Of a stretch of 64,000 nucleotides of DNA, positions 12,446 to 28,025 are shown in pieces. Position 1 is the first letter of the stretch. Each line of letters opens with the position of its first letter. The DNA is from Mycobacterium sp. Root265 (GTDB lineage: Bacteria; Actinomycetota; Actinomycetes; Mycobacteriales; Mycobacteriaceae): contig NZ_LMJA01000012.1 in NCBI RefSeq assembly GCF_001428895.1, forward strand, positions 63,313-127,312, given 5' to 3'. A model generated the notes under the pieces. That model ran no database searches. It was not told where the DNA came from and saw only the letters and a list, made by a program, of their open reading frames with translations. Both the position numbers and the translations under genes were made by a program.

Positions 12446-14275
12446 TCATCGCCGCCAGGCGATGGTGCCGGTCTCCAGCATCTGGGTCATGGTGTCGGCA
12501 TCGACCGGGGGTGAGAGCAGGAAGCCCTGTGCCTGATGGCAACCCATCTTCACCAGCATCTGCGCGGCCGCCTCGGTCTCCAGTCCCACCGCGACCAGGC
12601 CGAGGCCGAACGCCTCGCCGAGGGACACGATGGCCCGGATGATCGCCAGATCGTCCTTGCTCCCGTCGAGGTGCTGCACGAATGACCGGTCGATCTTCAA
12701 GGTGTCGATGGGCAGCGATTTCAGCCGGCTCAAATCGCTGTAGGCGGCCCCGAACTCGTCGAGCGCCAGCCCCACCCCGAGCGCTCGCAGTGCGGTGAGG
12801 ATCTCGTCGTTCAGGTCGGCGTCATCGGTGACGAAACTCTCCGCGAACTCCAGGCTCAACGAGGCCGGGTCGAGTTCGTACTCCGTCAGCACCCGCGCCA
12901 CGTGGTCGGCGAAACCAGCGGCGACCCGTTGTACCGGTGACACATTGACCCGCAGCTTCACGTCCTGCGCGAGCCCCACCGACTTCCAGTGCCGCAACTG
13001 CGCGCAGGAGTCCTGCAGTACCTTGCGGCCCAACACCGCTGCCAGGTTGGAGGATTCGGCGACGGGCATGAATGCGCTCGGGAGCAGCATGCCCCGGGTG
13101 GGGTGGTTCCACCGCACCAGCGCCTCGACCGCCACCACCTTGCCGGTACGCAGATCCACCTCGGGCTGGTAGTGCACCACGAAGGCTTCGTTCTCGATGC
13201 CATCGCGCAGATGCAACTCGACATCGTTGAGCAACAGGTATTTCAGGGCAATGGCGTCGGTGAAGACGGCGGTGTCGTTGCCCCCCGAACCCTTGGCCGC
13301 CACCAACGCCAGATCGGCGTAACGCAACACATCGGAGGCCGAGTCGCGGCCCGGGAAACCCACCGCCACACCGATACTGGCGGTCCGGCGGACGAATTCG
13401 CGTCCGATGGTGAAGGGCTCTTTGAGCAGCAGCCGGATCCGGTCGGCCAGCAGCGCGGCCTCCTCCAGTTCCATCGGCTGGTGCGGCACGATCACGAACT
13501 CGTCACCACCCTGGCGCGCGAGAAGCGCGGTGTCGCCGATCGATTCACGCAGGCGTCGGGCGAACTGCGCGATCAGTTCATCGCCCGCGGTGTGACCGAA
13601 CTGATCGTTCACCGATTTCAGCCGGTCCAGGTCGGTGAACAGCACGGCCGCCGGGCCGTCCTGACCGACTGCCAGGCGCCCGTTGAGATGATCGGTGAGG
13701 ACGCGGCTGTTGCACAGCCCGGTGAGGTCGTCGTGCTCGGCCAAAAACTGCAACCGGTCGATCGCCACCAGCCTCGCCTGCAGCTGAGCGAACATCGTCG
13801 CGATCGTCTTCAGCGCGTTGAGTTCTTCCTCCAGCCACTCCCGGTCGCCGTACTTCACGAAACCCAACGTGCCGGTGGTGACGTCATGGGACAGCAGCGG
13901 CACGCAAGCCATCGAAATCTGCGGAACCTCGGTGCCCTGCTGGATCGTCTGCTGATACTCGTCGGTCTTGGGCTCCGGACGGATCACCAGCGGCTCCTTG
14001 AGCCACTCAGCCATCGCGAAGACCGGGTCGGCGTCGGCGAAGTACACCACGCCGATCGGGTCCGGGTCGGGCACGAAGGTGCGTATAGGCCACTGCGCCA
14101 CCAACCGGGTCGCGTGGATCTCGTGATCGTTGTGCCGCAGGAACGCGACATCGAGCCCGAGATATGCCGCCAGATCGGTGAGTACCAACTCACTGACCTC
14201 GACCACATTGTCGGTGTGCGCGGTGATCAGCCGTTTGGCAGCCAGATCCACCAAGCCGTTGAGGCTGCCGATCAA
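12446..14275 (-). CDS. dcpA: GAF-GGDEF-EAL cyclic-di-GMP synthase/phosphodiesterase (DcpA / Rv1354c-like)
   Basis: A 609-residue three-domain protein: GAF (about 20-180), GGDEF (about 190-345; DDLTGLCNSRVL, active loop RQGGDEFVIV) and EAL (about 355-600; VEALVRWNHP, LRVNVSP, EFAESFV, KIDRSFV, VGLETEAAAQ, QAQGFLLSPP). The GGDEF loop is intact, so diguanylate cyclase activity is expected. The EAL DDFG motif reads DEFG, a conservative change of a metal ligand that may alter phosphodiesterase rate. The start is TTG at 14275 because an in-frame TGA lies two codons upstream. The domain order matches the M. smegmatis bifunctional enzyme DcpA. Confidence 0.9.
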   Translation of the reverse strand: MIGSLNGLVDLAAKRLITAHTDNVVEVSELVLTDLAAYLGLDVAFLRHNDHEIHATRLVAQWPIRTFVPDPDPIGVVYFADADPVFAMAEWLKEPLVIRPEPKTDEYQQTIQQGTEVPQISMACVPLLSHDVTTGTLGFVKYGDREWLEEELNALKTIATMFAQLQARLVAIDRLQFLAEHDDLTGLCNSRVLTDHLNGRLAVGQDGPAAVLFTDLDRLKSVNDQFGHTAGDELIAQFARRLRESIGDTALLARQGGDEFVIVPHQPMELEEAALLADRIRLLLKEPFTIGREFVRRTASIGVAVGFPGRDSASDVLRYADLALVAAKGSGGNDTAVFTDAIALKYLLLNDVELHLRDGIENEAFVVHYQPEVDLRTGKVVAVEALVRWNHPTRGMLLPSAFMPVAESSNLAAVLGRKVLQDSCAQLRHWKSVGLAQDVKLRVNVSPVQRVAAGFADHVARVLTEYELDPASLSLEFAESFVTDDADLNDEILTALRALGVGLALDEFGAAYSDLSRLKSLPIDTLKIDRSFVQHLDGSKDDLAIIRAIVSLGEAFGLGLVAVGLETEAAAQMLVKMGCHQAQGFLLSPPVDADTMTQMLETGTIAWRR

Positions 14276-14402: not shown

Positions 14403-15659
14403 TCAGGGGATTCGGTCCAGCAGGCTGCGGGCGATCACGGTGACCAGCTCCCGGTCGTAGGTGATCGCGAGATCGAAGCGACGCTCCGGTTCGGGCACCG
14501 AGCCGGTGGTGTCCTGCTCGCGGGCGATCAGCGCCGCGCAGTGGTGCGGCCCGAGGATGAGCACGATCCACTGCGCGCACAACGGATCGTCGGCTTTCAG
14601 GTCCACTCCCCGGATGCCGGATCCCAGATCCTCGGGCAGGCCCCGACCGAAGATGGCGACCAACGCCGAGGACGACGCCAGCTCGCTGTAGCGCGCGCTG
14701 GTCGACGCCGTGAAGTGTTGTGCCAGCTGCAGTGAGGCCATCACCATCGGCGGATCGGTCGCATGCCGCGCCTGGGCCTCGATGTGCCGGGAGAACGGAA
14801 TCAGGGTGGCCTTGCGCGCCGTCCGCACCAGCAGCCTTCCCGCCACCACGTCGAACGGCGAGTCGCCGGCCGGCTGCACCGGGTGCTTCATCGGCGGAGG
14901 CGACCACGACACCGGCGCCGGCTCGGTCAACGGCCCGGGCCTGCCGAACTTGTAGCCCTGGCCGAGGCTGGCGCCGAGCGCCAGCGCCTGCTCGAGGTGC
15001 TCGTCGGATTCGATGCCCTCGGCGAGCAGCACCGCCCCGGTGCGTTCGGTATGGGCCAGCACGGCGGCCAGGATGTGCGCCTGGGCGTCGGTGGGGTGTG
15101 ACTGCACCAGGTGGACATCGAGTTTGACGATGTCCGGGCAGATCACGTCGAGCAACGCCAGCGAATCAGGATGGGCACCAATGTCGTCGAGGGCGATGCC
15201 GAACCCGTCCGCGCGCAGGCCGGCCACCTTCTGCAGCAATGCCCGGGGGTGTTTCAGCAGGCTGCGTTCGGTCAGCTCGAAAATCACCCGCAGCTCGTCG
15301 TGTGCGCGGTCCAGAAGGGGGCTCTCGGCGCGGTTGAGGTGCGTTCCGAGCGGTTCGCAGTTGAGCGCGAGCACGGTGCCCTGCGGTAGCTCCCGGCGCA
15401 GCGCGTTGTCGATCGCGGCTTCGATGCACATCTTTTCCAGTCCGCCGAGGCTGCCGGTGGCCGCGGCACGTGCGAACACCGCCTCCGGGTCGGGATCGCC
15501 GAGCGCAGGCCAGCGCGTCAGGGCCTCGAAACCGACCACCGAGCCGTCCGCGAGTGCGGTGATGGGCTGGAAGGCGGGGTCCAGGCCGACACCGGACACG
15601 GCGGCGTCCAGAGTGGCGACCTCGTCGCCGTGCGGACCGCTCGGCGCAGTGGGCGACAC
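14403..15659 (-). CDS. EAL-DICT protein, probable cyclic-di-GMP phosphodiesterase
   Basis: A 418-residue protein. The GTG at 15659 has AAGGGG six bases upstream; the open frame continues further but runs through the tRNA region and is not credible there. The EAL domain (about 15-250) carries all catalytic signatures: GFEALTRWP, LALNCEP, FELTERSL, IALDDIGA, IVKLDVHLV, LLAEGIESDEH and GQGYKFGRP. A C-terminal section (about 270-415: VAGRLLVRTARKATLIPFSR; YSELASSSALVAIFG) resembles a DICT sensory domain. It degrades c-di-GMP if active, opposite to the neighbouring cyclase. Its nearest Mtb counterpart by position is Rv1357c. Confidence 0.85.
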   Translation of the reverse strand: MSPTAPSGPHGDEVATLDAAVSGVGLDPAFQPITALADGSVVGFEALTRWPALGDPDPEAVFARAAATGSLGGLEKMCIEAAIDNALRRELPQGTVLALNCEPLGTHLNRAESPLLDRAHDELRVIFELTERSLLKHPRALLQKVAGLRADGFGIALDDIGAHPDSLALLDVICPDIVKLDVHLVQSHPTDAQAHILAAVLAHTERTGAVLLAEGIESDEHLEQALALGASLGQGYKFGRPGPLTEPAPVSWSPPPMKHPVQPAGDSPFDVVAGRLLVRTARKATLIPFSRHIEAQARHATDPPMVMASLQLAQHFTASTSARYSELASSSALVAIFGRGLPEDLGSGIRGVDLKADDPLCAQWIVLILGPHHCAALIAREQDTTGSVPEPERRFDLAITYDRELVTVIARSLLDRIP

Positions 15660-15797
15660 ATCATCCCCTTGCGCTAGTACGCGTGACGCCGACCGGAGTC
15701 CACTCGCCCCGCATGCGCCTCGATGGCAAACATAGTCCGACCCGCTGGGCACCACGCCGCGTTCGACGAAGGTGGGCGGATCACCTGCCGGAAACGA

Positions 15798-15831
15798 AAA
15801 ATCCGCCCCGGCCGGAGCCGGAACGGATTTT
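15798..15831 (-). terminator. Intrinsic terminator after tRNA-Ala
   Basis: An 8-bp stem AAAATCCG/CGGATTTT, a 2x2 internal loop, and a 5-bp GC stem with a tetraloop. On the minus strand the stem ends in five T residues, giving a classic intrinsic terminator 9 bases beyond the tRNA 3' end. A similar A/T context on the other side makes it potentially bidirectional. Confidence 0.8.
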
Positions 15832-15839
15832 CGAGAACG

Positions 15840-15912
15840 TGGAGCTAAGGGGATTCGAACCCCTGACCCCCACACTGCCAGTGTGGTGCGCTACCAACTG
15901 CGCCATAGCCCC
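15840..15912 (-). tRNA. tRNA-Ala (anticodon GGC)
   Basis: A 73-nt cloverleaf on the minus strand. The acceptor stem GGGGCTA pairs with TAGCTCC (one G-U), with discriminator A. The D arm is GCGC-AGTTGGTA-GCGC, the anticodon stem CCACA/TGTGG with loop CTGGCAG (anticodon GGC, reading GCC), and the T arm AGGGG-TTCGAAT-CCCCT. CCA is not encoded. A promoter (15930-15959) and an intrinsic terminator (15798-15831) flank it. Confidence 0.97.
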
Positions 15913-15968: not shown

Positions 15969-17237
15969 TCAGGGCACCTCGCCACCGGCCTCTGGGCCGA
16001 GCGGGCGGGCCGGGGTGTGCTCGGCCGGCGGCCGGCCCCTGGTCTCGGGGGCGAACGCCCAGCCCACCGCGGCGAACAGCAGGATCGCGCCGCTGATCAC
16101 GAACGCCCAGGAGAACGAGAAGTACTGCGCGATCAACCCCACCAGCAGCGAACCACCGATCGAGCCGACGTCGGCCATCATCTGGAACGTCGCCACCGCG
16201 GTGCCACCGCGCGCCTTGCTGCCGATGATGTCGGCGACCGCGGCCTGCTGCGGCGAGACGAAGATCCCGGTGGCCGCGCCGGCGACGTAGGCCGCGACCA
16301 GGAACACCGGCATCGACGTGGTGAAGCCCACCAGCGCGGTGGACACCGCGGCCAGCGTCAGCCCGAAGATCAGCAGCTTGCGCCGCCCCAGCCTGTCCGA
16401 CAGATAGCCGCTGGGGATGACGACGGAGATGTTGCCCACCGCGAACGCCGTCAGCGCCAGACCCGCCGCGCCCGGCCCGCGACCGAGCACCTCCACGATG
16501 AACAGCGGCACCAGCGCGATCCGCAGGCCGAACGACGCCCACCCGGTGGCGAAGTTGGAGAGCAGGGCCGCCTTGTAGGCGCGGTGGGCGAACACGGTAC
16601 GGAACGGCACCGGCGGCGCCTCGTCCTCGTCCGACCGGCCGCCGATGGTGGATCGCCGCAGGCTGATGAACACCACGGCCGCGGCGACCAGCAGCGCGGC
16701 CCCGTAGATCAGGAACGGCGCGGACAGACCGAACCCCACGGTCAGGCTGCCCAGGATGGGCCCGCCGACCGATCCGATCATGAACCCCGAGGAGAACAAT
16801 CCGGCCACCCGCCCGCGCGCGTCGGGCGGCGAGATGCGGATCATCAGGCCCAGTGAGGACACCGTGAACATCGCCGACCCTAGGCCACCAAGGGAGCGGA
16901 ACAGCAGCAGCTGCCAGTAGCTGTCGGCCAGCGCGCAGGCGCCCGTCGACACGGCCACGATGATCAGGCCGCTGATGTACACCCGGCGTTCCCCGAGCCG
17001 CTGGACCAGGAAACCGGCCGGCGGCGCACCGACCAGGCGCATCACCGCGAAGGCGGTGATGACGAACGTGGCCGCGGCGATGCTGACACCGAAATGGCGG
17101 GCGTATTGCGGCAGCACCGGGGCCACCACGCCGTAACCGAGCGCGACCACGACATTCGCGGCGACCAGCACCCAGACTTCGCGCGGCAGGCGGCGCTTGG
17201 ATTCAGTCGGACAGTCGCCCTCCGCAACAGAGCTCAC
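15969..17237 (-). CDS. MFS transporter
   Basis: A 422-residue major facilitator with about 12 membrane helices. The GTG at 17237 overlaps the phosphoglucomutase stop (GTGA), whereas the upstream extension of the frame is Arg-rich shadow sequence. Motif A-like segments are visible after helix 2 (GAPPAGFLVQRLGERRVYIS) and in the second half (IPSGYLSDRLGRRKLLIFGL). Proline and Gly-rich helix 5 (GSVGGPILGSLTVGFGLSAP) suggests a drug-efflux type, but the substrate is unknown. Translational coupling to pgm is likely. Confidence 0.88.
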   Translation of the reverse strand: MSSVAEGDCPTESKRRLPREVWVLVAANVVVALGYGVVAPVLPQYARHFGVSIAAATFVITAFAVMRLVGAPPAGFLVQRLGERRVYISGLIIVAVSTGACALADSYWQLLLFRSLGGLGSAMFTVSSLGLMIRISPPDARGRVAGLFSSGFMIGSVGGPILGSLTVGFGLSAPFLIYGAALLVAAAVVFISLRRSTIGGRSDEDEAPPVPFRTVFAHRAYKAALLSNFATGWASFGLRIALVPLFIVEVLGRGPGAAGLALTAFAVGNISVVIPSGYLSDRLGRRKLLIFGLTLAAVSTALVGFTTSMPVFLVAAYVAGAATGIFVSPQQAAVADIIGSKARGGTAVATFQMMADVGSIGGSLLVGLIAQYFSFSWAFVISGAILLFAAVGWAFAPETRGRPPAEHTPARPLGPEAGGEVP

Positions 17238-18868
17238 CCGATGACTGTATTCACCACTTCCCTGGCGGCTTCCTGCACCTCGGCCAAGTGCTCGGCTCCC
17301 AGATAAGATTCGGCGTAGATCTTGTAGACGTCCTCGGTACCCGAGGGCCGCGCGGCGAACCAGGCGTTCTCGGTGGTGACCTTCAGCCCGCCCAGGCCCG
17401 CGCCGTTGCCGGGTGCGGTGGTGAGTTTGGCGGTGATGGGCTCGCCGGCCAGCTCGGTGGCGCTCACCTGTTCGGGTGACAGCTTGGCCAGCCGGGCCTT
17501 CTGTTCGCGATCGGCCGGGGCGTCGATGCGCGCGTAGGTGGGTGCGCCGTACGTGTCGGCCAGTTCGGCGTAGCGCTGCGACGGGGTGGACCCGGTGACC
17601 GCGAGGATCTCCGAGGCCAGCAACGCCAGGATGATGCCGTCCTTGTCGGTGGTCCAGGTCGAGCCGTCGGTGCGCAGGAAGGATGCGCCCGCGCTCTCCT
17701 CGCCGCCGAAACCGATTGTCCCGCCGATCAACCCGTCGACGAACCATTTGAAGCCGACGGGCACCTCGACCAGTTCGCGGCCCAGCCCGCCGACCACCCG
17801 GTCGATGATCGAACTGCTCACCGCGGTTTTGCCGACCGCGGTGCTGCCGGGCCAGTTCGGGCGATGGGTGAACAGGTAGTCGATGGCGACCGCCAGGTAG
17901 TGGTTCGGGTTCATCAACCCGCCGTCGGGGGTGACGATGCCGTGCCGGTCGGAGTCCGCGTCATTGCCGGTGGCGATCTGGTAGTCGCCGATCTTGCCGA
18001 TGAGCGAGGCCATCGCGTTCGGGGAGCTGCAGTCCATCCGGATCTTGCCGTCGGTGTCCAGCGTCATGAACCGCCACGTCGCGTCGACCAGCGGGTTCAC
18101 CACCGTGAGATCCAGTTTGTGCGTCTCGGCGATCGCGGCCCAGTAGTCGACGCTGGCGCCGCCGAGCGGGTCTGCCCCGATGCGCACCCCCTGGGCGCGG
18201 ATGACATGGAGATCGACGACGTTCGGCAGGTCCGCGACGTAGGCGTTGAGGTAGTCGTGGCGCTGCGCGACCTGCAGGGCGCGCGAGAGCGGGACCCGCT
18301 TCACCGCCCGGATACCTTCGCGCAGAATCTCATTGGCGCGTTTGGCGATGACGCTGGTGGCGTCGGTGTCTGCGGGTCCGCCGTTGGGCGGGTTGTACTT
18401 GAAGCCGCCGTCGCGCGGCGGGTTGTGCGACGGGGTGACGACGATGCCGTCGGCCAGGTCGGTGTCGCGGCCCCGGTTGAAGGTGAGGATGGCGTGGCTG
18501 ACCGCCGGGGTCGGGGTGTAGCGGTCGGCGGCGTCGATCATCGCCACCACGTCGTTGGCGGCGAGCACCTCCAGCGCGGAGGCCCAGGCCGGCTCGCTCA
18601 GGGCATGGGTGTCCCGGCCGATGAACAACGGACCCGTGGTGCCCTGGGCGGCGCGGTATTCCACGATGGCCTGGGTGGTGGCCAGGATGTGCGCCTCGTT
18701 GAAGGCGCCGTCCAGTGCGGAGCCGCGGTGCCCGGACGTCCCGAACACCACCTGCTGGGCGACGTCGTCGGGATCGGGCTGCACCGTGTAATAGGCGGTG
18801 ACCAGATGTGCGAGGTCGACGAGATCTTCGGGCTGTGCCGGCTGCCCGGCTCGCGGATTGGCCACCAT
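17234..18868 (-). CDS. pgm: Phosphoglucomutase (alpha-D-glucose-phosphate specific)
   Basis: A 544-residue enzyme interconverting glucose-1-phosphate and glucose-6-phosphate, linking glycolysis to glycogen, trehalose and cell-wall sugar nucleotides. The phosphoserine loop is VVTPSHNPPRDGGFKYNPPN (about residue 146), the Mg loop GNDADSDRHGIV, the sugar loop GGEESAGASFL and the phosphate loop ARPSGTEDVYKIY. The ATG at 18868 has GGAG six bases upstream. Length and motifs match Rv3068c (PgmA). Its neighbourhood with crcB genes and a DUF190 gene follows the Mtb Rv3068c-Rv3071 order, with the hemerythrin and SARP genes lying between. Confidence 0.95.
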   Translation of the reverse strand: MVANPRAGQPAQPEDLVDLAHLVTAYYTVQPDPDDVAQQVVFGTSGHRGSALDGAFNEAHILATTQAIVEYRAAQGTTGPLFIGRDTHALSEPAWASALEVLAANDVVAMIDAADRYTPTPAVSHAILTFNRGRDTDLADGIVVTPSHNPPRDGGFKYNPPNGGPADTDATSVIAKRANEILREGIRAVKRVPLSRALQVAQRHDYLNAYVADLPNVVDLHVIRAQGVRIGADPLGGASVDYWAAIAETHKLDLTVVNPLVDATWRFMTLDTDGKIRMDCSSPNAMASLIGKIGDYQIATGNDADSDRHGIVTPDGGLMNPNHYLAVAIDYLFTHRPNWPGSTAVGKTAVSSSIIDRVVGGLGRELVEVPVGFKWFVDGLIGGTIGFGGEESAGASFLRTDGSTWTTDKDGIILALLASEILAVTGSTPSQRYAELADTYGAPTYARIDAPADREQKARLAKLSPEQVSATELAGEPITAKLTTAPGNGAGLGGLKVTTENAWFAARPSGTEDVYKIYAESYLGAEHLAEVQEAAREVVNTVIG

Positions 18869-18912
18869 GACTCCATCCTTGCCTACCCGCGGCGCCGGTG
18901 TCTCGTCCTAGG

Positions 18913-18954
18913 TGCAAGCCCGTTGCAAGTTCGTCGCAAGTGGGCCGTTACAAG
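18913..18954 (+). promoter_or_regulatory. Three 11-bp-spaced heptamer repeats next to a -10 box (SARP-type iterons)
   Basis: TGCAAGC (18913-18919), TGCAAGT (18924-18930) and CGCAAGT (18935-18941) recur with an exact 11-bp period and 4-bp spacers. Seven bases later is TACAAG (18949-18954), a -10-like hexamer, and the hemerythrin ATG is at 18964. Heptamers at 11-bp spacing close to the -10 are the known binding layout of SARP/BTAD regulators, and a SARP-type gene follows the hemerythrin. Whether that protein binds here is inference. Confidence 0.6.
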
Positions 18955-18963
18955 GTTGCCGGC

Positions 18964-19656
18964 ATGAACAACTCCGCACGATCAGCCCAACCCGCCGGTA
19001 ACGTCCGCCGTCCCGCCGATCCGGATCCCGACCTGAGCGGGATCACCCTCACCCACCGCGCGATGGTCACCGACACCCGCCGGCTGGCCGAACTGACCGC
19101 CGCCGTCGCGCAGCGTCGACTGCCGTGCGGGCCCAAGCGGGCCAAGGCGGTCGCCCGCTACGTCGAGCTGATGTGTGAGTCGATCCACCATCACCACACC
19201 ATGGAAGACGATGTGCTGTGGCCGGTCATCGAGGCCTCGGCCGGCGATTTCATCGACCTGACCGAACTGACCGAGGACCACGCCGCGCTGGATCCGCGGC
19301 TGGACCGGCTGCGGGTGCACGCCGCGGCCTTCGGGCGGTCCGCCGATCCGGAGATGGCCCGGCCGCTGGCCGCCGGCCTGGCCGATCTGCACCGGCTGCT
19401 GGAAGCCCACATCGCCGACGAGGAACGTGACCTGTTCCCGGTGATCCGCCGGTACGTCTCGCTCAAGGACTGGCAATCCATCGAGAAGGCGGCCCGGCGC
19501 ACGGGACGGTTGTCCTTCGAGGGGCCGCGCATCCTGGGGGTGGCCACCGACGTCGAGCGCGCGACGCTGGCCGCCGGTGTGCCGGGACCGCTGATGTTGC
19601 TGCTGCGCTACCTCGCGGCCCGGCACCGCCGCTTCGAGCGCGCGGTCTTCGGCTGA
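18964..19656 (+). CDS. Hemerythrin (HHE cation-binding) domain protein
   Basis: A 230-residue protein. The start is the ATG at 18964, directly after the iteron promoter; an ATG at 18898 would put the iterons inside the gene. Candidate di-iron ligands are in order: H in LTHRAMVTDTRRL, H and E in SIHHHHTMEDDVLWP, H in LTEDHAALDPRLD, and H/E in LEAHIADEERDLFPVI. Such proteins bind oxygen or NO or sense redox stress; mycobacterial hemerythrin-like proteins affect peroxide and NO responses. The C-terminal 60 residues are a helical extension. It converges with the SARP gene across a 19-bp stem-loop. Confidence 0.87.
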   Translation: MNNSARSAQPAGNVRRPADPDPDLSGITLTHRAMVTDTRRLAELTAAVAQRRLPCGPKRAKAVARYVELMCESIHHHHTMEDDVLWPVIEASAGDFIDLTELTEDHAALDPRLDRLRVHAAAFGRSADPEMARPLAAGLADLHRLLEAHIADEERDLFPVIRRYVSLKDWQSIEKAARRTGRLSFEGPRILGVATDVERATLAAGVPGPLMLLLRYLAARHRRFERAVFG

Positions 19657-19673
19657 GACACCCGCTGTAGCCC

Positions 19674-19735
19674 GGCGAAACTCGCGTACCCGGGGTAAAT
19701 CCGCCCGCGGGAACCACGGGTACGCGGGTTTCGCC
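19674..19735. terminator. Long stem-loop between convergent hemerythrin and SARP genes
   Basis: The arms 19674-19692 (GGCGAAACTCGCGTACCCG) and 19717-19735 pair over 19 positions with one G-U, around a 24-base loop. It starts 18 bases after the hemerythrin stop and ends 11 bases before the opposing stop, so it probably terminates both. No T-run is present. Confidence 0.7.
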
Positions 19736-19745
19736 GCGCCAAAGC

Positions 19746-22700
19746 TCAGTCGATCAACGCCTGGGCCGCCGTGCGCAGCCGCTCGGTCAGCTCGGCGGCG
19801 GCCCGCCGGTAGCGCGCCGCAGCCGCGGTGTCGCCGGTGGCCTCCGCGACAGCGGCCAGCGCGGCGTCCACCGGCCCGGTCAGCAGCGTCCCGTTGTCCA
19901 GGCCCGCGAAGCGCCCGGAGTACGGCAGCAACTCCGCGGCGGTGGCGGTCGCGACCGCGAGATCGCCCATCGCGACGGCCGCATGAGCCCGTAAGGTGGC
20001 CATCGCGACGAAGTAGAAGGACCGCTCTATGGGGATGCGCTCCGCCCAGATCTGCTGGGCCTCTTCGACTCTGCCCGCCTGATGCAGTGCGATGGCGGCG
20101 CCGTCGGCGATGATCTTGGACACGAAGCGGTGCACGGCGACCAGGTCGTCGGCCATCGGGGCGAGGCTGCCGCGCACCAGGTTGGCGCTCACCCGGCCCA
20201 CGATGCCGATGTGCGCCCCGTTGGCGACGCCGTATTCGGCCAGCTTCGCCGAGACCGCGATATAGCCCCGCTCCCCCTCGTCGGTCCGGCCGGCCAATAC
20301 GGCCAACTGCGCGCCGAAGACGTCGAGCACTCCCAGCAGGAATCCGAGCTGGCCGGTGCCCGCCCGCGCCACCGCCTGATCGGCGTGCGCGGCCGCACCC
20401 GCCAGATCCGAACGCGCGGAGGCGTCCAGGAACGCGAACCAGTGCGCCACCGCCTGGTAGTCGATGGCGTCATAGGCCTCGGCCACCGAGAGCAGTTCGG
20501 CGACAATGCTTTCACGCTCATGGGCCAGGTCGGGCCCCAGGGAGGCGAAGGCCCGCACGTTGAGCGCGGCACACAGCAGCCGCTGGTTGCCGGCCGGGTG
20601 CTGCGCGTGCACGGCCCGGGCCAGCCGCAGCGCCTCTTCGGCGGCGGCCAGTGCCGAATCGTGGTCCACCCCCTCCAATTCGGTGAACAGGGTCAGCAGC
20701 AGCCGGGCGCGCACCTGCGGGGGCTGTTCGCGGCCCAGCACCCGGCGTAGCGGGTCGACGATGGCGTGATCGATGAGGTCGCCGTCGCGCACCCGCCACA
20801 CCAGCGGGCTGTCGGACGCGGTGAGCGCCTGCACCGCCAACACGTCGTGATCGCCGACGGCAACCATGGTGTGGTGCAGCTCTTCGCGCGATCCGATCGC
20901 ATCACCGGCCTGAGCCAGCGCGGCGATCAGACCGCACCGCGCGGGCACCGCCGACGCGTGGTCCGCGCCGGAGAGTTCGAACATGCCCACCGCGGCCCGC
21001 CACTGCCTGGCGGCCTCCACCGGCGCACCGACCCCGTCGGCCTCCCTCGCGGCCTTCATCGCGAAACCCGCCGCCTCGGCGGCGGTCTCGGTAGTGGCGG
21101 CGGCCACGGCGTGGTAGGCCAGCGATGCCGCGTCGCCATGGCCGGATGCACGTAACAGGTCCAGCGCCGCGGCATGCAGCCGGGACCGGCGCAGCACGGA
21201 CGTATCTTCGTAGAGGGTGTCCCGGATCAGGTTGTGCGCGAACCTGATCCGCCCGGGAGCCGGCTCGTCGAGCAGCCCGGTGAGCACCGCGGGTTCCAGC
21301 GCGTCGAGTAGTTCGTCGTCATCGCTGCGGGCCAGTTCGCCCAGCAGGGTGATATCGACCTCGCGGCCCAGCACCGCCGCCTGGCGCAGCGCGGTCGCGG
21401 TCTGCGGTGGCAGCCGGGCCAGCCTGCGCCGGACCACATCCCCGACCCCGGCGGGAATCCCGCCGTGCGCGGCGTCCACACCTTCGGCGACCATCAGCCG
21501 GGCCAGCTCACGGACGAACAACGGGTTGCCGCCGGTGCGTTCCCGCAACAGCCGCAACGTTTCCCGGGTCACCGCGGGCAGCCCGCAATCGGTGGCCAAC
21601 GCGGTCAGCGCCGCATCGTCCAGACCGGACAGGGTCAGATGTGCGGCGGTGTGGTTGGCCAGCGCGGCGCGGGCCTGACCCAGTTCGGCCCCGGATTCCG
21701 AGGGCCGGTAGGTGCCGATGACGAGCACCCGGCCAGCCCCGAGCCGATCCGCGGTCAGCCGCAACAGCTCCAGCGTCAGCCCGTCGGTGCGGTGCAGGTC
21801 GTCGAGCACGATGAGCAGAGGTGCCCGCTCGGCGGCCTGGCCGAGCACCTCGGCCAGCGCGTGCGCGATCCAGAACACCGTGCCCTCGGCGGTCTGCTCG
21901 GAGACGGCCCGGCCGTCGTGCAGCAGCGGCGCCAGCGCCGCAGACTGCCGCGGTGGCAATGTGGCGGTGAAGGTTTCGAGGACCTCGGTCCACGCCCAGC
22001 CCGGTGGCGCGCCGTCGACCTCGGGACTGCGCCCGGCGACCACCGTCCAGCCGGCCTTGCGCAGCCGGGTCGCTGCCGCCTCGACCACGGTGGTCTTGCC
22101 GGCACCGGCCTCACCGCCGATCCACACCACCCGCAGCCCGCCGCGCACCGCGGCGGCGGCCGCCGCGTCGATGGCGGCCAGTTCGTCGGCGCGCCCGCGG
22201 GTGGCACTGGCATCGGGCACGTCAGGTGGCGCCGACACCGGTGCCGGCGCCACCGCGATGGGGTCCAGGTGATCGGCGTGGCGCAGGATGTCGCGTTCCA
22301 GATCCCGCAGCGCCCGTCCGGGTTCCAGTCCGAGCTCGTCGGTGAGGTAGCTGGTGGTGCGGCGCAAGACGTCCAGGGCCGCCGTCTGGTGACCGGAGCG
22401 GTACCGCGCGACCGCCAGCAGGCAGGCGGCGGCCTCGCGGTCCGGGTGATCACGCACGTGCGGTTCCAGCACCCGGGCCACCACACCGTGCTGTCCCAGG
22501 GCGGACTGCGCCGCGGCGTGCGCCTCGGTGACGGACAGCCGCAGTTCGGCCAGGCGCGCCACTTCGGGGGCCGCCCACAGCGCGTCGCGGACCTCGACGT
22601 AGGGATCACCGGTCCACGCGGCGACCAGATCCTCCAGCAGCGCCGCCCGCTGCTGCGGGTCGCTGCATTGCTCGGCCGCGGCGATCCCGGACTCCAACGA

Positions 22701-23039
22701 CCACACATCGACGGCCTCGTCGGGCAGCCGCAGGCAGTACCCGGGCGCGGCACTGACGATCACCCGGGCCGCAGCCCGACGTTCGCGGCCGGGTTCCAGC
22801 ACCCGGCGCAGATGAGAGATGTAGGCCTGCAGCGCCGCCAGTGCCTTCGGCGGTGGCTCACCGGCCCAGAGGTCCTCGATCAGCCGGTCCACCGACACCA
22901 CGTCGCCGTGCGCGAGGACCAGGCGCACCAGCACCGACCGCTGTTTGGGCCCGGCCAGATCGACCGGCTGCCCGTCCACCCACGCCCGGACCGGACCGAG
23001 TACGGAGATCCGCACCTGAAGGAGATCCTGCGCCGTCAT
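19746..23039 (-). CDS. SARP/AfsR-type regulator: OmpR-like HTH + BTAD + AAA ATPase + TPR-like repeats
   Basis: A 1,097-residue regulator. The N-terminal winged helix (about 8-95: [40 protein letters not shown]) is followed by a BTAD (about 100-250: [35 protein letters not shown]). The ATPase domain (about 280-560) has Walker [17 protein letters not shown] and Walker [16 protein letters not shown]. The C-terminal half is helical, Ala-rich and TPR-like. Such large SARPs control secondary metabolism or stress genes in actinobacteria. Its -10 (TAGGGT, 23049-23054 complement) leaves a three-base leader. SARP-type repeats at the hemerythrin promoter suggest one target. Confidence 0.92.
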
Positions 23040-24985: not shown

Positions 24986-25255
24986 ATGGAAATGTCACAG
25001 CCCGAAGCGGTCAATCCGGAGCTCCTGGCCATCCTGCGCGACGATCTCAACATCGACGTCAGCCGGGTCTCGCGCGACTCCCGACTGGTCGACGATGTCG
25101 GCATGGATTCGGTGGCCTTCGCCGTCGGCATGGTCGCCATCGAGGACCGCTTGGGCGCGGCACTTTCCGAGGAAGATCTGCTCAGCTGCGAGACCCTCGG
25201 CGACCTGGAAAAGGTGGTGCTGGCCAAGCTGCCCGCGGATCAGGCCAACGCGTGA
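24986..25255 (+). CDS. mbtL: Mycobactin acyl carrier protein MbtL
   Basis: An 89-residue acyl carrier protein. The phosphopantetheine serine lies in [20 protein letters not shown] (Ser about residue 41). In mbt-2 it carries the lipid acyl chain that MbtM loads, MbtN desaturates and MbtK transfers to the lysine N6 of the mycobactin precursor. It starts almost leaderless behind an IdeR-like box and overlaps mbtM by GTGA. Gene order mbtL-M-N followed by opposing mbtK matches Rv1344-Rv1347c. Confidence 0.94.
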
Positions 25256-26847
25256 CCGCGGCGCCATGGGTTCTGGCGCAGGCGCTTTCGGAGGCGATGA
25301 CGTCCTCGGACCGCTCGCTGTCGGTGCTCGACACCGACGCCGGCACCTGGAACCGTCACCCGTGGGGCGAAATTCACGCGCGCGCCGAGAACGTCGCTGC
25401 GCGCATCTGTGATGACGGCGCGTCCGCGATCGGCCTGGTCGGCGATCCCACCGCGGAGTTCATCTCCGCCATCCCCGGGGCCTTCCTGGCCGGTGCCGCC
25501 GTCTCGATCCTGCCCGGGCCGGTGCGCGGCGCCGACCCGAAGCGCTGGGCGCGCGCCACCCTGGAGCGCTTCGACCGCGTCGGGGTGCGCACCGTGTTCA
25601 GCCACGGCTCTCATCTGCGTGAGCTGGCCGGCGCCGAGAGCGCCGTCGCGGTGCACGATGTCGGTGCGGTCGCGCACGCGCAGCGCTCCACCACCCACGC
25701 CGGAATGGTGACCGGCACCGGTGCGGCCGTGCTGCAGGGCACCGCGGGCTCCACCGGAACCCCACGCACAGCGCAACTCTCGCCCGAGGCCGTGCTGGCC
25801 AACATCGGTGCGCTGGTGCAGCGCGTCGGGGTCACCGACGCCGACTGCGGCCATTCCTGGCTGCCGCTCTACCACGACATGGGCCTGTCCTTCGTGCTCA
25901 CGATGGCGCTGGCGGGCGGGGACCTGTGGCAGGCACCGACATCGGCGTTCTCCTCCTCCCCGTTCGGCTGGATCAAATGGCTCACCGAGAGCCGCGCCTC
26001 GCTGACCGCCGCGCCGAACATGGCCTACAACATCGTCGGCAAGTACGCCGGGCTGGTCAGCGAGGCCGACTTCTCCCATCTGCGTTTCGCACTCAACGGT
26101 GGTGAACCCGTCGACTGCGACGGCAGCCGGCTGTTCGCCGAGAAGATGGCCACGTTCGGACTCGACCCCGGCGCGCTGGCCCCGTCCTACGGCCTGGCCG
26201 AATCGAACTGTGCGGTGGCGGTTCCCGGGCCCGGCCACGGACTGCAGGTCGACGAGATCCACATCGTCACCGATGCCGGCGGCTACATCCGCAAGCATGC
26301 CGTGCTGGGAGAGGCCATCCCCGGCATGGAGATCCGCATCGCACCCAACGAGCGGTTCGCCGGCGATGTGTCCGACCGCGAGGTCGGCGAGGTGGAGATC
26401 CGTGGCACCTCGATGATGAGCGGTTATCTCGGCGAGGACGCGGTCGACCGCGAAAGCTGGTTCCCCACCGGGGATATCGGCTACTTCCTGGACGGCAGCT
26501 TGGTGATCTGCGGGCGGGCCAAGGAAATCATCACCGTCGCCGGGCGCAACATCTTCCCGACCGAGATCGAGACGGTGGCCGCCCAGGTCGAGGGCGTCCG
26601 GGCCGGTGCCGTCGTTGCCGTCGGCACCGATGGGCCTGCCACCCGTCCCGGCCTGGTGATCGCCGCCGAATTCAAGGGTGCCGACGAACCGGCCGCTCGC
26701 ACCGCACTGGTCGAGCTGATCGCCTCCGAATGCGGCGTCGTGCCTGCCGAAGTCGTCTTCATGCGGCCCGGATCGCTGCCGCGGACATCCTCGGGCAAGC
26801 TGCGCCGGCTCGAAGTCAAACGCAACCTGGAGGGCGCGGGACAGTGA
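25252..26847 (+). CDS. mbtM: Mycobactin fatty acyl-AMP ligase MbtM
   Basis: A 531-residue adenylate-forming enzyme that activates long-chain fatty acid and loads it on MbtL. It starts at GTG 25252, overlapping mbtL. Motifs: the P-loop [31 protein letters not shown] (typical of fatty acyl-AMP ligases rather than CoA ligases), [33 protein letters not shown] and the C-terminal [13 protein letters not shown]. Length and context equal Rv1345 (FadD33). Confidence 0.95.
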
Positions 26848-28025
26848 CCGCCACCATCGACACCGCCGAACCGACCTCGCTGGCGGACTTCCAGGAACTG
26901 CTGAGCCGGGTCTTCGACGACCGGGTTCGGGCCTGGACCGCCGAAGCCGAGCGCACCGGGAAGTTCCCCCGCGAGCTCATCGAATACCTGGGCGCCGAAG
27001 GGGTTTTCACCGCCAAGTGGGGCGACTCACAGCATCCCGACGTGGCCAAGGTGATCGCGCTGGCGCTGGAGTTGGGCAAGCTGGGGTCGGCCGGTATCGC
27101 CGTCGGGGTCAGCCTGCACGACTCGGCCATCGCGCTGCTGCGCCGGTTCGGCCGCTCCGAGCATCTGAAGGACATCACCGAGAAGGCCATCCGCGGCGAG
27201 GTCGTGCTGTGCGTCGGCGCCTCGGAGGAGTCCGGCGGATCGGACCTGCAGATCGTCGAGACCAAGGTGCGTTCGGTGCGCGACGGATTCGAGGTCAAGG
27301 GCATCAAGAAGTTCGTCTCGCTGTCCCCCATCGCCGATTACGTGATGGCGGTGGCCCGCAACGTGGACAACGACCCGCACAGCAGGCACGGCAATGTCGT
27401 CGTCATCGCCGTCCCCCTGCATGATCCGGGTGTGCAGGTGCAGCAGCCGTACAACAAGGTCGGAGCCGGACCGCTGGACACCGCCGCGGTGCACATCGAC
27501 ACCTGGGTGCCCGCCGACGCACTGGTGGCCAGGGCGGGTATCGGCCTGGCCGCCATCTCCTGGGGGTTGGCCCACGAGCGCATGTCGGTGGCGGGCCAGA
27601 TCGCCGGCAGCTGTCAGCGGGTGCTGGGAATCACGTTGGCCCGCATGATGACACGCAGTCAGTTCGGCCGCACGCTGTACGAACATCAGGCGCTGCGGAT
27701 GCGGATGGCCGACCTGCAGGCGCGAGTGGACATGCTGCGCCACGCGCTCACCGGGATCGCCGTCGGCGGGAAACTCGACCTGCGCACCGCCGCCGCCATG
27801 AAGGTGTGTGCGGCCCGCCTGGGCGAGGAAGTGGTCTCCGAATGCATGCACATCTTCGGTGGCACAGGCTATTTGGTCGACGAGACGCCACTGGGCCAGT
27901 GGTGGCGGGATATGAAGCTGGCACGCATCGGCGGCGGCACCGATGAGGTGCTGTGGGAACTCGTCGCGGCCGCGATGAAGCCGGATTACGACGGCTACGA
28001 AGAGATGATGGGCGCCGCTACCTAG
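26844..28025 (+). CDS. mbtN: Mycobactin acyl-ACP dehydrogenase MbtN
   Basis: A 393-residue acyl-CoA-dehydrogenase-fold flavoprotein thought to introduce the alpha,beta double bond in the mycobactin acyl chain on MbtL. The GTG at 26844 overlaps the mbtM stop. Flavin and substrate regions include [60 protein letters not shown] and the C-terminal [20 protein letters not shown]. Its stop lies three bases from the stop of opposing mbtK, with no visible terminator. Counterpart Rv1346 (FadE14). Confidence 0.94.

Follow-up and report, generated by a model that had tools for sequence, protein, structure and literature searches.

Genes and promoter of the hemerythrin locus

The window analysed here, a stretch of 64 kb, belongs to a 6.67 Mb genome (G000:C12) of a Mycobacterium, the genus being taken broadly and judged from the relatives, and carries a gene for a hemerythrin-like protein that is convergent with a gene for a large SARP regulator. 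Three direct repeats and a -10 element lie between the hemerythrin gene and its divergent neighbour. The features are:

17234-18868, minus strand: phosphoglucomutase (pgm, assigned by Pfam), divergent upstream neighbour of the hemerythrin gene
18913-18923, plus strand: repeat 1, 11-mer TGCAAGCCCGT, with heptamer TGCAAGC at 18913-18919; about -51 to -41 if transcription starts at 18964
18924-18934, plus strand: repeat 2, 11-mer TGCAAGTTCGT, with heptamer TGCAAGT at 18924-18930; -40 to -30
18935-18945, plus strand: repeat 3, 11-mer CGCAAGTGGGC, with heptamer CGCAAGT at 18935-18941; -29 to -19
18951-18956, plus strand: -10 element CAAGGT (consensus CANNNT), assigned from column conservation across 47 loci
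18964-19656, plus strand: hemerythrin-like (HHE) protein, 230 aa, ATG at 18964, PF01814 E 3e-16; probably leaderless
19664-19745, no strand: inverted repeat of 33 nt between the convergent genes, arms 85% complementary and 16 nt apart
19746-23039, minus strand: SARP with ATPase, 1,097 aa, convergent with the hemerythrin gene; OmpR-type DNA-binding domain, BTAD and AAA_16

The first-pass annotation had placed a 1,097-residue SARP-ATPase beside the hemerythrin gene, and it is indeed encoded there (19746-23039, minus strand). Its description as an orphan is inexact, the SARP being a constant partner of the hemerythrin. The inverted repeat at 19664-19745 likely acts as a two-way terminator. Many relatives have no pgm match beside the hemerythrin gene, and pgm is thus not a fixed member of the module. 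Eighteen window ORFs were submitted to Pfam, and neither a PKS nor an NRPS is among them. At 2.2 kb past the SARP start begin genes for an AMP-binding enzyme and then an acyl-CoA dehydrogenase (25252-28025, plus strand), which possibly form a small lipid or other pathway, and an FAD enzyme and a P450 are encoded at 44.9-47.2 kb of the window. PADLOC returned no match for the hemerythrin or the SARP. Plasmid carriage of the module was rejected; 19 plasmid records match, all at less than 60% identity. Two adjoining genes of the cyclic-di-GMP type lie on the minus strand (GAF-GGDEF-EAL, 12446-14275; EAL-DICT, 14403-15875), adjoined by a tRNA-Ala(ggc) at 15839-15912.

The heptamers share GCAAG and recur with a period of exactly 11 bp (18913-18941), at the very coordinates given by the first-pass annotation. 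In order, the promoter consists of three CAAGY repeats, nine bases, a weak -10 of the form CANNNT, and a start codon 7 nt further on, so that the mRNA is probably leaderless, with a start predicted at or near 18964. The -10 element had earlier been read as TACAAG (18949), seven bases beyond the third heptamer. We rejected this assignment because the hexamer that is invariant across relatives is CAAGGT (18951-18956), which starts two bases further on and leaves a gap of nine bases.

Taken by itself, the bare triple repeat is only modestly unusual. Allowing up to three mismatches, it has two overlapping matches in 64 kb against 0.45 expected, and 11 of 100 shuffles reach two. The full array (CAAGY-N6-CAAGY-N6-CAAGY-N9-CANNNT) has a single match in the window and no match in 100 shuffles; this pattern was framed after the relatives had been inspected and describes the match rather than providing an unbiased test. 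A repeat finder with ungapped identity limits grouped only the first two copies as a family. What decides the matter is conservation.

Conservation of the array within the genus

We searched 397 genomes of the genus for the hemerythrin. At E up to 1e-20, 78 of them yielded 90 matches, of which 88, from 77 genomes, form one subfamily (E below 1e-40). The strict pattern CAAGY-N6-CAAGY-N6-YAAGY has 109 hits in 88 of the 397 genomes, 78 of them directly upstream of a hemerythrin gene and 31 elsewhere. Of the 90 hemerythrin matches, 78 have it upstream, including proteins with as little as about 44% identity. With a relaxed score, 83 of 87 loci (L064-L150) reach at least 14 of 15 points; those below are L138, L139, L145 and L147. 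L138 and L139 are hemerythrin copies with imperfect operators. The sequence of a further locus (L151) begins inside the hemerythrin gene, and the distant matches L152 and L153 are without an array.

After a 75% redundancy filter, 47 loci were kept for column counts; L147, whose best-scoring window lay one repeat upstream, was shifted by one repeat by hand beforehand. The 50-mers of these loci align without a single gap. The CAAG of the repeats is nearly invariant, and the CAAG columns together with bases 1, 2 and 6 of the -10 carry about 1.0-2.6 bits, against a flank mean of 0.10. At the -10, the second position is A and the sixth is T in all 47 loci. Among the nine nearest relatives, none of the 18 core bases has changed, compared with 1 to 9 of the 24 spacer bases. 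In the 38 bases upstream of the array, 5 to 9 have changed in six of these relatives and 27-28 in the other three, where the high number probably comes from an indel. In the first six the flank is thus kept at least as well as the spacers, and within this clade the contrast is therefore between core and spacer only.

The start codon lies 6 or 7 nt past the -10 in 44 of the 87 loci, including the window, and transcripts in these loci should therefore begin at the start codon. In the remaining 43, an in-frame start is found 27-59 nt on (six of them also have one nearer), typically preceded by GAGGAG-like ribosome sites resembling Shine-Dalgarno sequences. This split between near and far start codons supports the assignment of the -10. 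The first-pass annotation had made its reading depend on the iterons being conserved where the gene pair is, and this proved to be so: iterons, pair and spacing are kept together across the genus and in other actinobacterial families.

Linkage of the SARP and the hemerythrin

Of the 397 genomes, 74 encode the SARP (E up to 1e-100). None of these 74 is without the hemerythrin subfamily, which is itself present in 77 (Fisher p 2e-77, a value that ignores shared ancestry). A SARP match lies within about 4.3 kb in 84 of the 88 subfamily loci, a few of these matches being fragments, whether or not pgm is upstream. Three extra hemerythrin genes (L081, L084 and L085) have the operator and no adjoining SARP, and each of their genomes has a SARP elsewhere. 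Conversely, extra SARP copies with neither hemerythrin nor array nearby occur at G034:C1:1011243, G121:C21:43622, G200:C1:5823769 and G317:C1:4603289.

The operator is also kept where the SARP is damaged or in doubt. In G119 the SARP has been lost save for an apparent C-terminal remnant (read by eye), in G068 it is reduced to a fragment, and in G231 the locus has runs of unknown residues; all three retain the operator. An operator that outlasts its SARP is mild evidence against strict dependence. G198 has a second SARP, beside its second hemerythrin copy (L139), that is split in two frames; the operator there is imperfect, and this module is perhaps in decay.

Regulon size and a second candidate target

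In the genome to which the window belongs, a model built from mycobacterial sites only (R1) recovers the known site at E 7e-7 and one other below E 0.1, at E 0.007. The second site consists of two CAAG repeats, nine bases, CATAGT, six bases and a GTG start. The gene that it precedes encodes a polytopic membrane protein of 575 aa, which has some 15 hydrophobic segments and matches no family in Pfam or NCBIfam. The best background hits of R1 in the other 20 genomes have E values of 0.015-0.1, not far off, and E 0.007 alone is thus weak evidence for a target. We compared 16 orthologs of this gene (15 from 298 genomes, plus that of G317). A perfect pair of CAAGY repeats with an 11-bp period occurs in seven of the ten genomes with a SARP, compared with none of the six without (one-sided p 0.010, relatedness ignored); the other three SARP-bearing genomes do not have the repeats at this gene. 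Eight of the nine repeat-less orthologs have AATAAT or GATAAT as the -10, nearer to consensus by eye, and a weaker -10 thus tends to go with the repeats. Downstream of the second candidate target is a gene for an Abi_alpha (abortive infection) protein (297 aa, PF14337 E 3e-32; L301, G000:C28, 3304-4197), which is also found beside four of the 15 other orthologs within the flank examined.

A two-repeat match is also present in the same genome at G000:C26:242306. With one further candidate site from R1 in this genome, the regulon looks very small. A wide regulon is not supported. Many of the 31 strict hits away from hemerythrin genes are near-identical tandem runs; a reversed-pattern control also hits many genomes, and the 31 hits are therefore in keeping with background. 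Inspection by eye of the 50 bp before the SARP gene revealed no array through which it could regulate itself.

The module in other actinobacteria

Among the best 80 of 193 hemerythrin matches, from which very near records may have been left out, the closest named relative is Mycolicibacterium frederiksbergense LB 501T, whose hemerythrin is 89% identical. The environmental species M. neoaurum and M. aurum (L164, L163) also have the gene pair. The same 80 include relatives from Nocardia, Williamsia, Micromonospora, Paractinoplanes, Dactylosporangium and Virgisporangium, among others, and from Streptosporangium, Microbispora, Nonomuraea, Sphaerisporangium, Kitasatospora and Blastococcus. From them 28 named non-mycobacterial loci were retained, and a SARP sequence is present in the flank of 26 of these, the exceptions being L211 and L219. 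Repeats and -10 in the mycobacterial register outscore all 300 control windows of the locus in 27 of the 28, L209 being the one that fails; the weights of this score were set after the 28 loci had been inspected, so it was not blind. R1, with its mycobacterial training set, provides an independent test on these loci. At E up to 5, 13 of the 28 have a plus-strand site upstream of the hemerythrin gene, and for 12 of these E is below 0.1; R1 also returned some minus-strand sites. An order-level hemerythrin search matched 33 of 298 genomes, and a SARP sequence is present in 16 of 23 further loci from this search, where flanks are short.

A membrane protein of about 220 aa with an HPxEHSE motif is encoded near the hemerythrin gene in 12 loci, six among the 28 named non-mycobacterial ones and six further ones. 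Examples, which have no Pfam family above cut-off, are:

L224, 9892-10572, minus strand: HPxEHSE membrane protein
L238, 10422-11066, minus strand: HPxEHSE membrane protein

For 11 of the 12 genes, a same-strand array outscores at least 96% of controls (L235 is the exception, and L210 is marginal at 4%). A search of ten mycobacterial genomes, run without a positive control, gave no ortholog of this Nocardia-type protein.

The hemerythrin-like protein

Di-iron proteins of this kind have the ligand pattern H...HxxxE...H...HxxxE. The window protein fits it; its putative ligands H31, H77, E81, H106, H149 and E153 do not vary in two alignments, of 24 and 26 sequences. The HHE domain (PF01814) scores 60.4 bits against a cut-off of 25.3, and the predicted structure is all-helical (mean pLDDT 92.8). 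Neither RIC/YtfE (iron-sulfur repair) nor PA2171, which are di-iron or ribosome-binding proteins, is an acceptable identity, the profile matches being weak (30.6 against an equivalog cut-off of 204.7, and 21.6 against 190, respectively).

Hemerythrin-like proteins of M. smegmatis affect susceptibility to H2O2 and erythromycin (PMC4660385), and the HLP of M. kansasii is reported to be a NO peroxidase (PMC8913304). These proteins are hemerythrin-like, as is the window protein, and the accounts of them available to us mention no SARP control (PMC4660385, PMC8913304). PA2171 is described as an inhibitor of translation (PMC13041383). The M. smegmatis and PA2171 reports serve as leads only for the function of the window protein.

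Proposed mechanism and alternatives

The repeats, the -10, the fixed spacing between them, the co-occurrence of the two genes and the small number of other sites can be read directly from the genomes. From these we infer that the triple repeat is the operator of the adjoining SARP, which would bind it and activate the hemerythrin gene, and we put the probability of this reading at about 0.83. The first-pass annotation had proposed that the SARP acts on the hemerythrin promoter, and the shared conservation and the concentration of strict hits at hemerythrins (78 of 109) support such an action, with binding as a presumed step. On the model of AfsR, the ATPase half of the SARP, which is STAND-like, would be switched on by a signal, and adjacent SARP protomers would then occupy the three CAAG repeats. 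The downstream pair of protomers (-40 to -19) could replace a -35 element and hold sigma region 4, enabling RNA polymerase to use the poor -10 (CANNNT). The outcome would be a dedicated, on-demand mRNA, leaderless in this species, for a hemerythrin-like protein with di-iron ligand residues.

The repeats might instead be bound by a response regulator of the OmpR/PhoB family (PhoP, MtrA or RegX3 type), the SARP being merely a linked gene. OmpR-type response regulators use 11-bp direct repeats as well, and G119 has kept its operator although its SARP is gone. However, regulators of the PhoP, MtrA and RegX3 type are widespread in mycobacteria and have many targets, whereas 78 of the 109 strict hits are at hemerythrins that travel with the SARP. 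The heptamer is moreover the one published for SARP-LALs (PMC5930380, PMC3367932), and we regard a response regulator as an unlikely owner of these repeats. Repression of the hemerythrin gene by the SARP, in place of activation, appears more improbable still. The array adjoins the -10, where a bound protein could block polymerase, but this position is that of AfsR activation (PMC10936776), the -10 is weak, and the repeat-less orthologs of the second target have a -10 nearer to consensus in eight of nine cases (AATAAT or GATAAT, by eye).

An open frame does run through the repeats, from a GTG at 18898, and the bare triple repeat with three mismatches is not rare, so that the repeats could in principle be chance or codons of a longer hemerythrin ORF. 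This explanation is hardly credible: core bases are invariant while spacers drift, flanks are near random in the 47 diverse loci, and the array is kept where the start lies 27-59 nt downstream behind a Shine-Dalgarno-like GAGGAG. It is contradicted also by the non-mycobacterial loci, 27 of 28 of which keep the register of the array.

If the SARP activates the hemerythrin gene as proposed, environmental mycobacteria and many other actinobacteria would have in common a simple and conserved pairing of regulator and target whose operator can be read. Through this pair, the signal sensed by a SARP-ATPase and the role of this hemerythrin subfamily become accessible to experiment, and the fixed operator allows candidate targets to be read off genome sequence.

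Comparison with known SARP systems

SARPs have been studied as switches of antibiotic clusters, and the large ones are mostly without known signals. Because such regulators are known for switching antibiotic production, pairing with a hemerythrin is unexpected. A literature search found no report of a SARP-hemerythrin link, subscription papers being mostly outside its reach. The window regulator has an OmpR-type DNA-binding domain (PF00486) followed by BTAD (PF03704), both above cut-off, then AAA_16 at residues 282-441, with no LuxR-type HTH at E up to 1. By this architecture it is a SARP-LAL, and it works like one. It is not an ortholog of AfsR, for which it scores 135.7 against an NCBIfam equivalog cut-off of 1430. 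The best PDB match, 2fez, is EmbR, a SARP of M. tuberculosis that shares the SARP domain; EmbR, however, has 388 residues, an FHA domain and no ATPase half, whereas the window protein has one.

SARP targets are described as having direct repeats 11 bp apart, with the 3' repeat about 8 bp from the -10 (PMC10936776). The hemerythrin promoters follow a rule of this kind, with a period of 11 and nine bases from CAAGT to CANNNT, fixed in 47 loci. AfsR of Streptomyces coelicolor has the same N-terminal domains as the window SARP (PDB 8k60, 8jke, 8hvr). Its box spans -40 to -19, each protomer contacts the first eight bases of an 11-bp repeat, and the target has a poor -10, CACTGT (PMC10936776). If transcription of the hemerythrin gene starts at 18964, the upstream and downstream direct repeats of this box have the same coordinates as repeats 2 and 3. 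AfsR, as described there, uses two repeats of another sequence, in contrast to the three CAAG repeats of the window.

With a residue numbering offset that we inferred, the AfsR backbone contacts W74, P79, S91, R94 and K95 correspond to W58, P63, S75, R78 and R79 of the window SARP, and these are conserved in 106 SARPs (83 mycobacterial and 23 other; position 79 is K in two). The base contacts T88 and R92 correspond to A or V72 and mostly H or N76, a change that is expected because the heptamer differs from that of AfsR. Further AfsR contacts (Q48, S80, Q81 and R87) fall on different residues (K32, P64, K65 and Q71). Across 82 loci, all 37 SARPs with A72-Y73-H76 are paired with NNCAAG in repeat 3, and all 34 with V72-Y73-H76 are paired with CTTAAG. 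Ten further V72 loci, with other residues at 73 or 76, keep the C in repeat 3, and V72 alone is therefore not decisive. The co-variation of residue 72 and repeat 3 follows the two main mycobacterial clades.

A close likeness is to the Streptomyces SARP-LALs PimR, SanG and PolR, which, as far as the available accounts go, combine an N-terminal SARP domain with a large ATPase half and no LuxR HTH, as does the window protein. The heptamer CGGCAAG is common to all three, and PimR binds three copies of it separated by 4-bp spacers (PMC5930380, PMC3367932). The window heptamers have this core; the CAAG and the 11-bp period are shared, and the bases before CAAG vary among relatives. PimR has one target gene, and the SanG and PolR operators overlap the -35 (PMC5930380, PMC3367932). 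The PimR array, according to the same account, lies upstream of the -35, unlike that of the window. PimR, SanG and PolR are described as serving the pimaricin, nikkomycin and polyoxin clusters, whereas the target in the window is a hemerythrin. The class of regulator and the type of operator are thus known, and what is new is a widely conserved hemerythrin target. We give even odds to a broader reading, in which a hemerythrin-like di-iron protein and its own SARP-ATPase sensor constitute an ancient actinobacterial regulon outside antibiotic synthesis. This regulon would have added the HPxEHSE membrane protein in several non-mycobacterial genera and the polytopic membrane protein in some mycobacteria, each with its own array, and stress switches of this kind may be the source from which the antibiotic SARP-LALs, whose operator is likewise CGGCAAG, were recruited.
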